Part shown: positions 11,001 through 32,838 of the stretch, piece after piece
How the letters are laid out: the number at the start of each line of letters is the position of its first letter
How positions within the stretch are numbered: the stretch's first letter is position 1
Source of the DNA: Pseudomonadota bacterium
GTDB taxonomy: Bacteria; Pseudomonadota; Gammaproteobacteria; Burkholderiales; Thiobacillaceae
Assembly: GCA_030653935.1 (NCBI GenBank)
Contig: JAURYL010000102.1
Coordinates: forward strand, 1-32,838
Direction of reading: 5' to 3'
DNA length: 32,838 nt
Translations under genes and position numbers: made by a program
The notes under the pieces: model-generated
Told to the model about the DNA's origin: nothing
Database searches by the model: none
The model's input: only the letters and a program-made list of their open reading frames with translations

Positions 11001-11198
11001 ACCATCGGCGGCCTCTCCACCCTGATGGCGGAAACCTCCCTGCAGGCGCAGTTCCTCATCCCGATGGCCACCAGCATCACCTTCGGCCTCGCCTTCACCA
11101 CCTTCATCGCCCTGCTTTGGCTGCCCGCCATGCTCTCGTTCTATGAATCCGGGCATGTGCGGCTGATGCGGTACCTGGGGAGAACGCAGATCGCGTAG
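8079..11198 (+). CDS. RND efflux pump, inner-membrane subunit (HAE/AcrB type)
   Basis: A 1039-residue proton-driven exporter, the usual length for AcrB-like pumps. TM1 (about residues 15-33) is followed by the first large periplasmic domain, then TMs 2-6 (from about 333). TM4 carries the paired proton-relay aspartates Asp400-Asp401 in VIVDDAVVV. A second periplasmic domain (about 540-860) and six more helices complete the fold. The start at 8079 gives the typical N-terminus (MKRQDLLGTFVHHPVAANLLM); an in-frame codon at 7878 would add 67 residues made only of repeat sequence. No Shine-Dalgarno is visible because a repeat ends 4 nt upstream. The TAG stop lies inside repeat F. It works with the adaptor at 6482-7717; substrate unknown. 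Confidence 0.9.
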   Translation: MKRQDLLGTFVHHPVAANLLMLILLLAGLFAVSKLNVQFFPNFNLDFVTVRVDWRGAAAEDVEEGVTTPLEQKLKSVAGVKHLTSTSSQGVSSISIEFKEGTDPITAVDEVKQAVDQFRNLPQDAEPPEVGRVIRYEPIARVLLSGASLPELRRLARQYEQELLGRGVDRVDLLGLPDEEIAITVPGKELERLGLTLDQVATRLALTNRDLPAGKVGGGEMNGEVQREVRGVNLRRDPRDYQDLPLVTEAGSRIELGQVAEITRGPRDNSLFLEVNGKPAVELLLKRAEEGNTLKAAEILNAWLADTRPKLPPTLQLEVYDETWSLIEDRIGLLLSNGAMGLIIVVFILLLFLNGRVTVWVAMGIPTAFMATLAVVWLVGGSINMISLFALIMALGVIVDDAVVVGEDAYAHHKMGEDPMFASEGGARRMFWPVIASSLTTVAAFLPLMLVSGPMGKILGDIPFIMICVLLASVVECFFILPAHLRNAFAHEGKKVSKARLWLNQTFDNFRDGPFRRAVTAAIEYRGVTITAGVVILILSVGLLAGGRVKFTFFPTPEPQIVYANATFASGTPRVQVEAFLEHLRQSLEATEKSYGVENKVVAHAVFSNGGLAGEQRVRQGDQFGSVNVELTPSEKRDVRTETFIKDWQSRIQVPAGIENFVVVPRRQGPPGGDLVVRLAGHDAHALKLAALDLQASLRQIPGVYGIEDDMPYGREQVVFNLTPAGEALGLTLDDLSRQLRAGLDGKLVQLFQDGPEEVEVRVRLPAAERASLALLERFTVRTPSGDWVPLATVAHWSTRQGFEALRHAESQLAVEVNGTVNSAVANSNEILAGLAEATMPALERKYGIHWSFQGRAADQRETMADMKTGLMLGLALIYIVLAWVFGHYGWPIIIMLAIPFGLVGAITGHWVMGIDLTILSMFGLFGLSGIVVNDAIVLVEFYRHQREKGLAVTEALINAACLRLRAILLTSLTTIGGLSTLMAETSLQAQFLIPMATSITFGLAFTTFIALLWLPAMLSFYESGHVRLMRYLGRTQIA

Positions 11199-11279
11199 GA
11201 GCGGACCGAGTCCGCGATATCACCGTGGCTATCGCGGACGCGGTCCGCTCCTACTATCGCGGACGCGGTCCGCTCCTAC
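11195..11279. repeat. Repeat F cluster (GTAGGAGCGGACC family), three 25-bp units
   Basis: Unit 1 (11195-11219) begins GTAGGAGCGGACC and includes the TAG stop of the RND pump. Units 2 and 3 (11230-11254 and 11255-11279) are exact tandem copies in the opposite orientation, differing from unit 1 at one base. Unit 1 can therefore pair with either one to form a long hairpin, which may act as a terminator. Confidence 0.88.
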
Positions 11280-11305
11280 GGCTTTTTTTGAGGTATTCCT
11301 GGATC

Positions 11306-11923
11306 ATGCCCACCGAATCCGTCCGTTTCTTCGACACCCAGTTCCAGCGTCAGGTGGATGCCGGCGAGTTCGAACTCAACCCGTTTGAGCGGTTGACGCT
11401 GCCGTATTTGCAAGGTGAGGTGCTCGACCTCGGCTGCGGCCTCGGCAACCTCGCCTTGGAAGCCGCGCGCGCCGGCTGCCGGGTCACCGCGCTGGACGGC
11501 AGCCCCGCCGGTATCGCCCGCTTGCGCGAGACGGCGGCCGGCCTCGGTTTGCCGGTCGCGGCACATGAGGCCGACCTGGGCCATTGGGCCGGCGACCGCG
11601 ATTACGACAGCATCGTTGCCATCGGCTTGTTGATGTTCTTCCCGCGTGAACGCGCCGAAGCGTTGCTCGCCGACATTGTCGCCCATGTCCGACCGGGCGG
11701 CGTGGTGGCGCTCAATGTGCTGACTGAAGGCACCACCTTCCTCGGCATGTTCGAACCGGATCACTACCACCTGTTCGCCCCCGGTGCCCTGAAAGCCGCG
11801 TTGCCCGGCTGGGAAATCCTGGCCGAGTCGGTGGATCAATTCCCCGCGCCCGGCGATAGGGTGAAAGTCTTCGATACCGTGATTGCGCGCCGTGTAGCGC
11901 CGGCTTCCAGCCGGCTGTTTTAA
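11306..11923 (+). CDS. TehB-like SAM-dependent methyltransferase
   Basis: A 205-residue class I methyltransferase. The SAM-binding glycine loop DLGCGLG is at residues 41-47, the ribose-binding acidic strand end is in VTALDGS (about 63-69), and a post-I acidic residue is in HEADLGHW. The C-terminal half (VNVLTEGTTFLGMFEPDHYHLF, split by family-typical turns) resembles TehB-type tellurite-resistance methyltransferases, but the substrate is not shown. The ATG at 11306 is preferred: upstream in-frame codons are translated repeat F. GAGG lies 12 nt upstream, rather far. The last nine residues (VAPASSRLF) are encoded by repeat B (11893-11915) and the bases beyond it, so the native C-terminus was probably altered by the repeat. 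Confidence 0.8.
   Translation: MPTESVRFFDTQFQRQVDAGEFELNPFERLTLPYLQGEVLDLGCGLGNLALEAARAGCRVTALDGSPAGIARLRETAAGLGLPVAAHEADLGHWAGDRDYDSIVAIGLLMFFPRERAEALLADIVAHVRPGGVVALNVLTEGTTFLGMFEPDHYHLFAPGALKAALPGWEILAESVDQFPAPGDRVKVFDTVIARRVAPASSRLF
11893..11915. repeat. Palindromic repeat B inside the 3' end of the methyltransferase gene
   Basis: TGTAGCGCCGGC with the TTCCA centre and GCCGGC end. It is read through in a frame where its TAG is out of phase, adding codons before the TAA at 11921. Confidence 0.85.
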
Positions 11924-27487: not shown

Positions 27488-27979
27488 ATGAACCGTTTAT
27501 TAAGACATCTCATCTATCCGGATTGGCTGATCCGGCGGCGCTTCCCGGAACCTGTTCTGGAGCGGATAGAAACCGCTGTGGGTACGTCGGAGCGTGGCCA
27601 TGCCGGTGAGTTGCGGTTCGCGGTTGAGGGCACCTTGCACCCCGGCGCGCTGTGGGTCGGCATGACGGCGCGGGAACGCGCGTTGGACGTGTTTTCCAGC
27701 CTTCGTATCTGGGACACCGCAGCCAATAACGGGGTATTGATTTATCTGCTGCTCGCGGAGCGCGATGTGGAGATCGTCGCGGATCGCGGTTTCAATGGCC
27801 TGGTAGCGCCCGCCGAGTGGGAGGACATCTGCCGCGAGATGGAAGCCTGCCTGCGGCGGGGTGAATATGAGGTGGGCGTTCTGCGTGGCATCGAGCGGGT
27901 GGATGCGTTGCTACGAAGGCACTTTCCCGGCAGCGGCGACAATCCCAACGAGTTGCCGGACGCGCCTCGGGTGTTGTAG
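27488..27979 (+). CDS. Second TPM-domain protein, without membrane anchor
   Basis: A 163-residue protein with no signal peptide. The TPM-like core includes RIETAVGTSERGHAGELRFAVEG (split by family turns), RIWDTAANNGVLIYLLLAERDVEIVADRGF (about residues 75-104) and a C-terminal helix pair. Tandem TPM genes of this type, one with a glycine tail and one soluble, are common in proteobacteria. The ATG at 27488 follows GAGGACAAACGC and starts at MNRLLRHLIYPDW; longer upstream frames overlap the glycine tail. The TAG stop is the TAG of repeat B, so the last codons border a repeat. Confidence 0.82.
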   Translation: MNRLLRHLIYPDWLIRRRFPEPVLERIETAVGTSERGHAGELRFAVEGTLHPGALWVGMTARERALDVFSSLRIWDTAANNGVLIYLLLAERDVEIVADRGFNGLVAPAEWEDICREMEACLRRGEYEVGVLRGIERVDALLRRHFPGSGDNPNELPDAPRVL

Positions 27980-28011
27980 CACCGGCTTCCAGCCGGCCAG
28001 CCGGCGCTACA
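27975..28011. repeat. Palindromic repeat B with internal duplication, carrying the TPM stop codon
   Basis: TGTAGCACCGGC to GGCGCTACA with an extra GCCAGCCGGC in the centre. It is directly followed by the efp terminator on the other strand. Confidence 0.85.
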
Positions 28012-29827: not shown

Positions 29828-29922
29828 GGGAATCACCTTCTGGCCGCGCTGTCGGGCGACCGCGGGGTACCGCCATGGCGCGCGCCCGGCGTCTTGCGGC
29901 ACCTGCCGCCGGTAGCCTCATA

Positions 29923-30033
29923 GGTTGCCTCGAACAACCCGTCATTCCCGCGCAGGCGGGAATCCAGTGTATTGATCCCACTGGGTTCCCGTCTTCACGG
30001 GAACGACGAATCAGGGGTTTTTCGAGGTGACCC
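29923..30033 (+). mobile_element. MITE-like element, copy 1
   Basis: About 111 bp with imperfect terminal inverted repeats (GGTTGCCTCGAACAACCC at the left and the inverse of GGGTCACCTCGAAAAACCCC at the right). Inside are two TTCCCG/CGGGAA hairpins similar to the ATTCCC-type intergenic repeats of Neisseria. It has no coding capacity. An inverted copy, about 85% identical by eye, is at 31069-31179. Confidence 0.7.
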
Positions 30034-31068: not shown

Positions 31069-31179
31069 AGGGCACCTTGAAAAACCCCTGATTCGTCGTT
31101 CCCGCGAATGCGGGAACCCAGTGAAATCAACACACTAGATCCCCGCATGCGCGGGAATGACGGGTTTTTCGAGGCGCCC
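31069..31179 (-). mobile_element. MITE-like element, copy 2 (inverted)
   Basis: About 111 bp. Its left end (AGGGCACCTTGAAAAACCC) and right end (inverse of GGGCGCCTCGAAAAACCC) form terminal inverted repeats. The two internal TTCCCG-type hairpins are as in copy 1, but in opposite orientation. With copy 1 it brackets about 1.0 kb containing hns. Confidence 0.7.
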
Positions 31180-31189
31180 TCAACTCGGT

Positions 31190-31306: not shown

Positions 31307-32797
31307 ATGAACCTGGAAACAGCCGCCCACCCGGAGACCTTGCGCCGTGTCGCCATCGACCCGATCTCGCGCGTCGAAGGCCATGGCAAGGTCACTCTGT
31401 TGCTGGATGAAGACGACCATGTTCAGCAGGTACGTCTGCATATCGTCGAGTTCCGCGGCTTCGAGAAATTCATCCAGGGCCGGCCGTATTGGGAAGTGCC
31501 GGTGATGGTGCAGCGCCTGTGCGGCATCTGCCCGGTGTCGCACCATCTGGCCGCCTCCAAGGCGCTTGATCAGATCGTCGGCGCGCACCGGCTCACGCCC
31601 ACCGCCGACAAGCTGCGCCGGCTCATGCATTACGGCCAGATCCTGCAATCACACGCGCTGCATTTCTTCCACCTGTCGTCGCCCGATCTGCTGTTCGGCT
31701 TCGGTTCCGACGTCGCCAAGCGCAACATCGTTGGCGTTGCCGAGGCGCATCCCGAGGTGGCGCGCCAGGGCGTGCTGCTGCGCAAATACGGCCAGGAAGT
31801 CATTCGCCACACCGCCGGCAAGCGGGTGCATGGCACCGGCTCGGTGCCGGGTGGGGTGAATAAAAATCTGAGCCTGGTCGAACGCGATGAACTGCTGAAG
31901 GACATCTATCAGATCATCGGCTGGAGCCGCGAGGCGGTGCATATCGCACGCAATCTGTTCGAGCAGAACCTGGCGGAATACAACGCTTTCGGCCGCTTCC
32001 GCGCCCATACCCTGAACCTGATCCGCGCCGACGGAGCGATGGACCTCTACCACGGCGGTTTGCGCGCCCGTGACATGGATGGCAAGACGCTGTTCGACCA
32101 TGTCGATTACAACCACTACTGGGAGCACATCCTGGAAGAGGTGAAGCCCTGGTCGTACATGAAGTTTCCCTTCCTGCGCGCGCTCGGGTCGGAACAGGGT
32201 TGGTATCGGGTCGGCCCGCTGACCCGCGTGACCCAGTGCGATTTCATTCCCACCCCGCTGGCTGAACGCGAGCGCCAGGAATTCCTGGCTTTCGATGGTG
32301 GCAGCGCCACCGGCGCCACCCTGGCCTACCATTGGGCGCGGATGATCGAAATGCTGCATGCCGCCGAGGCGATCAAGGAACTGCTGCACGACGCCGACTT
32401 GCAGGGCAACGAGCTGATGGTCAAGGGCGAACGCCAGGAACGCGGCATCGGCATGATCGAAGCGCCGCGCGGCACCCTGATCCACCATTACCGGGTCGAT
32501 GAAAACGACCAGGTGATCCGCGCCAACCTGATCGTCTCCACCACCCACAACAACCAGGCCATGAACGAAGCCGTGCGCCAGGTGGCGCGCCAGTATCTGG
32601 ACGGGCGCAAGCTGACCGAAGGTCTGCTCAATCACATCGAAGTCGCCATCCGCGCCTTCGACCCCTGCCTCTCCTGCGCCACCCACGCCCTGGGCAAGAT
32701 GCCGCTGCAACTGGAATTGCTCGACGCGGAAGGGCGCGAGATCGACCGGCTGGTGCGCGACGCACCCTGTAGCGCCGGCGTCCCGCCGGCTTCGTAG
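31307..32797 (+). CDS. hoxH: NiFe hydrogenase large subunit, HoxH type (bidirectional, NAD-linked)
   Basis: A 496-residue catalytic subunit. The L1 motif [11 protein letters not shown] (Cys72 and Cys75) and L2 motif DPCLSCATH (Cys454 and Cys457) ligate the Ni-Fe site. The N-terminal [12 protein letters not shown] and [12 protein letters not shown] resemble HoxH of group 3d enzymes, which pair with HoxY and the HoxFU diaphorase to couple H2 and NAD(H). A HoxW-type protease normally cuts after the L2 histidine (His460 here), removing the C-terminal tail. The tail is 36 residues, and its last nine (CSAGVPPAS) are encoded by repeat B. AGAGGAA lies 8 nt before the ATG. No hoxF, hoxU or hoxY lies upstream, where they usually are. 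Confidence 0.9.
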
Positions 32798-32838
32798 GGC
32801 TGATCAGATGTACGAAGCCGGCGGGACGCCGGCGCTAC
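32768..32838. repeat. Long inverted repeat of family B at the hoxH 3' end
   Basis: Arm 1 (32768-32796, TGTAGCGCCGGCGTCCC...) lies inside hoxH and reaches its TAG stop. Arm 2 (32811-32838) is the exact reverse complement up to the window edge, with a 14-nt spacer. The hairpin could serve as a terminator. Confidence 0.9.

Follow-up and report, generated by a model that had tools for sequence, protein, structure and literature searches.

A REPIN at the junction of hoxH and hoxW supplies the tail of a hydrogenase large subunit and the putative head of its maturation protease

A 70-bp palindrome at the 3′ end of hoxH is a REPIN, i.e. an inverted pair of GTAG-class REPs. As read from the sequence, this single element would supply the tail of a substrate (HoxH), its stop codon, a Shine-Dalgarno (SD)-like AGGG, and the start codon and head of the protease (HoxW). 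The best explanation, which we hold to be probably correct, is an insertion in the ancestor of nine genomes that was tolerated, touched only unconstrained protein ends and later became the basis of the hoxW start in seven of them. The names REPIN and RAYT are taken over from the REP literature, and "the window" denotes the whole 32,838-nucleotide stretch of DNA analysed.

Results

A REPIN encodes the end of HoxH

HoxH was assigned by its match to the Pfam family NiFeSe_Hases (107.8 bits against a cut-off of 25.8) and by its best solved relative 5xf9_D (E 9.2e-189), a chain of an NAD-reducing hydrogenase. It possesses the DPCxxCxxH signature of HoxH-type large subunits as DPCLSCATH, followed by a 36-residue extension (Table 1). 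The chain 5xf9_D stops at the His aligned with His460, which agrees with a predicted cleavage of HoxH after His460. A decaying hoxH is unlikely, with a HoxY-like small-subunit gene found at 84-90% identity in all six genomes tried.

Positions 32769-32838 form an inverted pair of 35 + 35 nt with 91% complementarity. Folding of the 98-nt RNA from 32741 to 32838 gave -75.1 kcal/mol with an outer stem of 28 bp (32769-32796 with 32811-32838), and the fold (z = -7.9) was matched in stability by none of 200 shuffles. HoxH residues 488-496 (CSAGVPPAS) are encoded by the left REP, with the first base of Cys488 (32768) alone lying outside the arm. The REP pattern GTAGCGCCGGCNNCNNGCCGGC has 87 exact matches on the plus strand and 92 on the minus strand (179 in total) of the 3.8-Mb genome, whereas the reversed control pattern has 0 and 0; together with the fold z of -7.9, this places the repeat beyond chance. 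A GTAG head stands beside an imperfect palindrome in many copies, as in GTAG-class REPs. The inverted pair, the REP family and the sequence thus confirmed the original observation that the nine last HoxH codons and the TAG stop are repeat-encoded. An intrinsic terminator was rejected, as no T-run follows the right arm.

Table 1. Features at the 3′ end of hoxH, in window coordinates
Feature	Position	Strand	Basis or content
hoxH, large subunit of an NAD-reducing-type [NiFe] hydrogenase	31307..32797	+	496-aa ORF
L2 motif DPCLSCATH, last residue His460 = putative cleavage site	32660..32686	+	sequence
C-terminal extension, 36 codons (residues 461-496)	32687..32794	+	conserved positions only to residue 476
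Left REP arm	32769..32796	+	HoxH residue 488 (codon bases 2-3) to 496 and first two stop bases
hoxH stop TAG, supplied by the REPIN	32795..32797	+	sequence
SD-like AGGG, 8 nt upstream of hoxW start, of putative use	32796..32799	+	sequence
hoxW start: ATG in REPIN loop, codons 2-10, one base of codon 11	32808..32838	+	putative start, from sequence
Right REP arm, inverted	32811..32838	-	other strand encodes HoxW residues 2-10

The right arm runs into hoxW

The window is the whole of contig C107 and, with the final base of the right arm, ends within the palindrome. In the direction of hoxW, contig C69 from this genome opens with a stretch identical to the window's final 54 bases and continues into hoxW. 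The gene lies at the end of C69; its putative ATG (32808-32810) sits in the REPIN loop, and the right arm supplies residues 2-10. In genome G019 the junction lies inside a 366-kb contig, where HoxH ending in CSAGAPPAS is followed by TAG, ten bases and then MNEAGGAPALLVIGIGNPSRGDD. HoxW of G019 scored 78.1 bits against TIGR00072 (hydrogenase maturation protease; cut-off 47.45) with a match from residue 11, and no Pfam family was found for it at E 0.001. HoxW of the window's genome (G000) is 86% identical to this protein, on which the TIGR00072 match was scored. In a structure model of the G019 protein, residues 1-10 have a mean pLDDT of 62, residues 1-4 fall below 50, and residue 10 opens the first strand.

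The repeat occupies a variable part of the HoxH extension

In an alignment of 46 HoxH sequences (that of the window and 45 out of 74 found), no column after residue 476 was invariant or at least 90% conserved. Residues 484-496 have pLDDT values below 50, which is soft evidence because the mean of the model is just 74.4. Both observations support the original suggestion of an insertion-tolerant site, and the repeat appears to have rewritten a part of the extension that was already variable. According to PMC7294309, such extensions vary in length between 3 and 68 aa, and a hydrogenase whose extension is changed or deleted is generally inactive, although the enzyme of that study itself stayed active; by this account the discarded peptide as a whole is not free to change.

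It had further been claimed that the repeat is confined to the discarded peptide. Within HoxH this stood, since only residues after the putative His460 site are changed; it did not hold for the element as a whole, since the second arm changes the N-terminus of HoxW. Nor need the peptide be removed for the insertion to be explained.

The insertion maps to one branch of the genus

The genus comprises 23 genomes, 19 of which have a readable hoxH 3′ end. A REP tail was found at hoxH in 9 of these 19, clearly in seven (G000, G019, G006, G005, G011, G017 and G022) and in degenerate form in G008 and G009, whose tail CGAGVS was judged by eye to be REP-derived. The nine residues occurred in 0 of the 10 same-genus repeat-free genomes with a readable hoxH end, so alignment of the relatives' C-termini favoured the insertion proposed originally. 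Going by sequence, hoxW starts inside the REPIN in seven carriers, with ATG in five and TTG in G008 and G009, and the remaining two (G017 and G022) combine a REPIN at the hoxH end with a separate putative hoxW TTG start beyond it. Among the 10 genomes without the repeat, the hoxW start overlaps the hoxH stop in 7 (TTG or GTG with TGA), hoxW starts later in G014 and G021, and hoxW was not found downstream of hoxH in G012. REPIN carriers have tails of 30-36 aa, compared with 34 aa throughout the sister clade (five genomes); with hardly any lengthening, the originally proposed effect of a longer tail on protease recognition is unsupported.

In a hoxH + hoxW tree of the 19 genomes and an outgroup, the nine carriers formed one side of a branch (support 89/96, unstarred), which recurred in 90% of 200 bootstrap trees, and as tight a clustering appeared in 0/500 label shuffles. 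Support was 81/82 in an earlier 17-row tree of both genes that left out three same-genus repeat-free genomes, and the carrier group was unresolved in a tree from hoxH alone. A single clade of the seven fused genomes was weakly rejected (p-AU 0.031 with 20 rows and 0.051 with 17 rows), and fusion may therefore have been multiple or the junction may have recombined. From these sequence comparisons, the REPIN was likely inserted once, while it is doubtful that fusion to HoxW happened only once.

Exact REP counts in the seven clear carriers were 179, 155, 152, 124, 108, 105 and 47. Elsewhere in the genus we counted 3 in G008, 1 in G009, 19 in G012, 2 in G013 and none in the remaining 12 genomes; no REP lies at hoxH in G012, and no hoxH was found in G013 (58% complete). 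In G008 and G009, the hoxH ends have the look of relics that survived the repeat family.

Several further observations concern this region. G011 (L005) has a partial tandem duplication of the REPIN loop (TAGGGCTGATCAG / TAGGGCTAATCAG) and keeps the hoxW start. Genes resembling hoxF, hoxU and hoxY do not lie upstream of hoxH in the window, G019 or G022; in G021 (L034, 1-2253) they nearly precede hoxH, with two small genes between. We take hoxF and hoxU to be such by their appearance. The HoxY-like gene of the window's genome is on contig C59 (L228). Just upstream of hoxH, 29922-30032 and 31070-31180 form a 111-nt inverted pair, 87% complementary and 1037 nt apart, that is unlike the REP.

Members of the REP family elsewhere in the genome

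The first 100 listed places of the 179, together with the window, gave 95 elements; 5 at contig edges were dropped and 90 were counted, among which the hoxH REPIN occurs a second time via L146. By a home-made gene caller, 72 of the 90 elements were intergenic, the hoxH copy itself not being so, and 37 (the hoxH one included) were two-arm inverted REPINs. An SD-like motif together with an ATG in the loop was present in the hoxH REPIN only and in 0/36 of the other two-arm REPINs sampled. One other match to the strong pattern (L181) has an ATG in an arm and a similar loop (GGGCTGATCAG), and the REPIN loop at L190 holds a TTG as a possible start of the next gene, with an alternative TTG just past the element. 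REPs were also located in the called N-terminal part of genes at L124, L191, L192 and L200, where the true starts may be downstream. At L192 (309-1142, minus strand) and L200 (1425-1973, plus strand) the called starts overlap the upstream stop and the REPs fall in the first codons; these genes may have REP-encoded N-termini or mis-called starts.

The GTAG head provides the TAG stop of a gene in 9 of the 90 sampled elements, and two genes of the sample, hoxH and 11306-11923, read through a REP at their 3′ ends in a different frame. At least 9 head-TAG stops among 11 would arise with P = 0.0014 if frames were equal (binomial), which suggests that REP read-through tails are selected against, as far as a home-made gene caller with perhaps unequally detectable frames can tell. 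One of the 9 is in the window, where the head GTAG of the REP at 27976-27997 (plus strand) holds the TAG stop of a gene ending at 27979. The gene at 11306-11923 (plus strand) is presumably methyltransferase-like, as named from a motif, and the REP at 11894-11915 encodes its tail VAPASSRLF. Its same-genus counterparts end in RRP or RKP in 4/8 cases and have different tails in the other 4. A REP tail on such a protein implies that no discarded peptide is needed for one to arise.

A long gene contains an entire 69-nt REPIN in frame, at L133 1501-1569 (G000:C33:65782-65850); from its appearance we take this gene to encode an efflux pump of RND type. The counterparts in G006, G011 and G022 align contiguously without this REPIN, with query residues 100-122 absent there. 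Five Y1_Tnp genes above the family cut-off were detected in the genome. The one at L145 is flanked on both sides by a different GTAG-type family (GTAGGAGCGGACC...GTCCGCGAT), and the one at L142 is followed by a hairpin that is similar yet distinct and preceded, at some 300 nt, by a single REP of the hoxH family. The family around L145 also occurs in the window, at 11194-11280.

The hairpin is stable in some carriers and lost in others

Junction folds were compared with 100 shuffles each, over 91 nt in G000 and 110 nt in the others. Strong hairpins were obtained for G000 (z -9.2), G019 (-7.6), G017 (-5.9), G005 (-4.7) and G006 (-3.2), and a weak one for G022 (-2.3, whole element). The hairpin is lost in G011 (-0.7), G009 (-0.7) and G008 (-0.1), where both frames are still open; six junctions without the repeat ranged from +1.6 to -2.0. 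As the frames survive loss of the hairpin, these data can be read as tolerance first, with coupling as a possibility.

Covariation between the arms was analyzed in five ungapped REPINs, the four carriers whose elements differ in length or have decayed arms being left out. Double changes were found in 4 of 28 pairs (37/500 shuffles had as many), and the covariation score was 0.118 versus 0.076 in shuffles, 4/500 of which were as high; the percent of paired cells was not unusual, with 51/500 shuffles as high. Divergence per genome pair was 0.04-0.39 in the REPIN versus 0.13-0.42 at fourfold sites of hoxH + hoxW. G000 and G019 differ at 3/70 REPIN positions, below their fourfold sites, and the other nine pairs at 12-27/70. 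Strong purifying selection on the whole REPIN was thus not seen, G000 and G019 alone being conspicuously alike; their likeness and the excess covariation give a hint of constraint or conversion. A paired difference between these two genomes gives V492/A492 in HoxH and T7/A7 in HoxW.

Discussion

The sequence of events that fits these results best begins in the shared ancestor of the nine genomes, where a REPIN, presumably moved by a RAYT-type transposase, most likely inserted next to hoxW, into the variable hoxH 3′ end. It would have affected the distal HoxH extension, which is presumably discarded after maturation, and a few residues before the first strand of HoxW, and it would have been tolerated because only unconstrained protein ends were touched. 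In G017 and G022 the hoxW TTG start apparently survives downstream of the REPIN. In the other seven genomes this downstream TTG start would have been lost, so that hoxW starts in the REPIN and reads through its right arm; the fusion would then have come after the insertion, with the start in the loop probably the one in use. A ribosome finishing hoxH may melt the left arm and reinitiate 10 nt further, replacing the ancestral stop/start overlap. Reinitiation drops steeply with distance and is nearly lost near 20 nt, according to PMC10666635; the gap here is 10 nt. A tolerated insertion is the best explanation because the ends are predicted to be disordered and the REPIN diverges mostly like synonymous sites.

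The most serious alternative, which we nevertheless regard as rather unlikely, is that the REPIN is kept for an RNA hairpin that controls expression, whether by coupling hoxW to hoxH, by slowing the ribosome or by protecting the upstream message, so that much HoxH and little HoxW would be made. The hairpins of G000, G019, G017, G005 and G006 are indeed very stable, covariation between the arms exceeds that of shuffles with double changes in 4/28 pairs, and the stop, the AGGG and the ATG sit in or at the loop in the window's genome, a set absent from the loops of G017 and G022 with their separate hoxW start. REPs within 15 nt of a stop have also been reported to stall ribosomes (PMC12306157). 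Yet the frames persist in G011, G009 and G008 without the hairpin and in G022 with a weak one, the percent of paired cells is not unusual, and REPIN divergence is about that of fourfold sites in most genome pairs. A bolder version, to which we give a still smaller chance, makes the palindrome both a translational coupler and a two-protein mutational unit tying the substrate tail to the protease head: the stop, ribosome site and start in the loop would make protease synthesis depend on a ribosome finishing the substrate, and a change that one arm passes to the other, perhaps through template switching, would alter both proteins at once, as in V492/A492 with T7/A7.

It is very unlikely that the new tail or head alters recognition between HoxH and HoxW. 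One element does alter both partners of one cleavage reaction, and extensions matter for maturation (PMC7294309), but the tail is not notably longer (30-36 versus 34 aa), the changed residues lie past the conserved part, both ends have low model confidence and their residues vary freely among carriers. That the window is a whole contig ending exactly with the repeat might point to an assembly artefact; we reject this idea as extremely unlikely in view of the 54-base overlap with the hoxW contig and the G019 junction inside its 366-kb contig.

Elements of this picture are known from other systems. A 2013 paper in BMC Genomics (PMC3733652) describes GTAG REP termini that often provide a TAG stop and REPs that can encode protein ends. 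The hoxH REPIN resembles the GTAG-tagged REPs described there in its GTAG head, in inverted dimers and in a mostly intergenic family near gene 3′ ends; unlike theirs, the hoxH stop is a TAG 26 nt into the element and not the head TAG, and one dimer ending a gene and beginning the next, as here, is not described in the passages of that paper considered. REPINs (PLoS Genet 2011, PMC3116915) likewise consist of two inverted REPs as one unit, whereas both arms are coding here. The translation-slowing REPs described in PMC12306157 are likewise at a stop codon, whereas the present one opens ahead of the stop and is part of the translated sequence. Rickettsia palindromic elements, mentioned in PMC3733652, are mobile palindromes translated in proteins, while the present element spans a gene junction. 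Coding palindromes of Nematomorpha mitochondria (PMC6649704) are inverted repeats with both arms translated within genes, while the arms here belong to two genes. Among the matches listed from open-licence PMC papers, none dealt with REPs at hydrogenase genes, with a REPIN that joins two genes or with a REP linking a protease to its substrate. REP-encoded stops and termini are already known; to the extent of this search, a single REPIN that links a substrate to its protease is new.

REPs are generally regarded as extragenic elements, and here both arms of one element are coding. The two gene products act on each other, and the REPIN has taken the place of the stop/start overlap that ancestrally joined their genes. 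The genus offers a series from no REPIN, through a REPIN with a separate hoxW start and a REPIN fused to hoxW, to REPIN-like ends in genomes where the family is nearly gone; with such a comparable series in one genus, the absorption of mobile repeats into genes and the role of REPIN hairpins as translational couplers become testable. The finding also shows which part of the disposable tail of a hydrogenase may vary freely.
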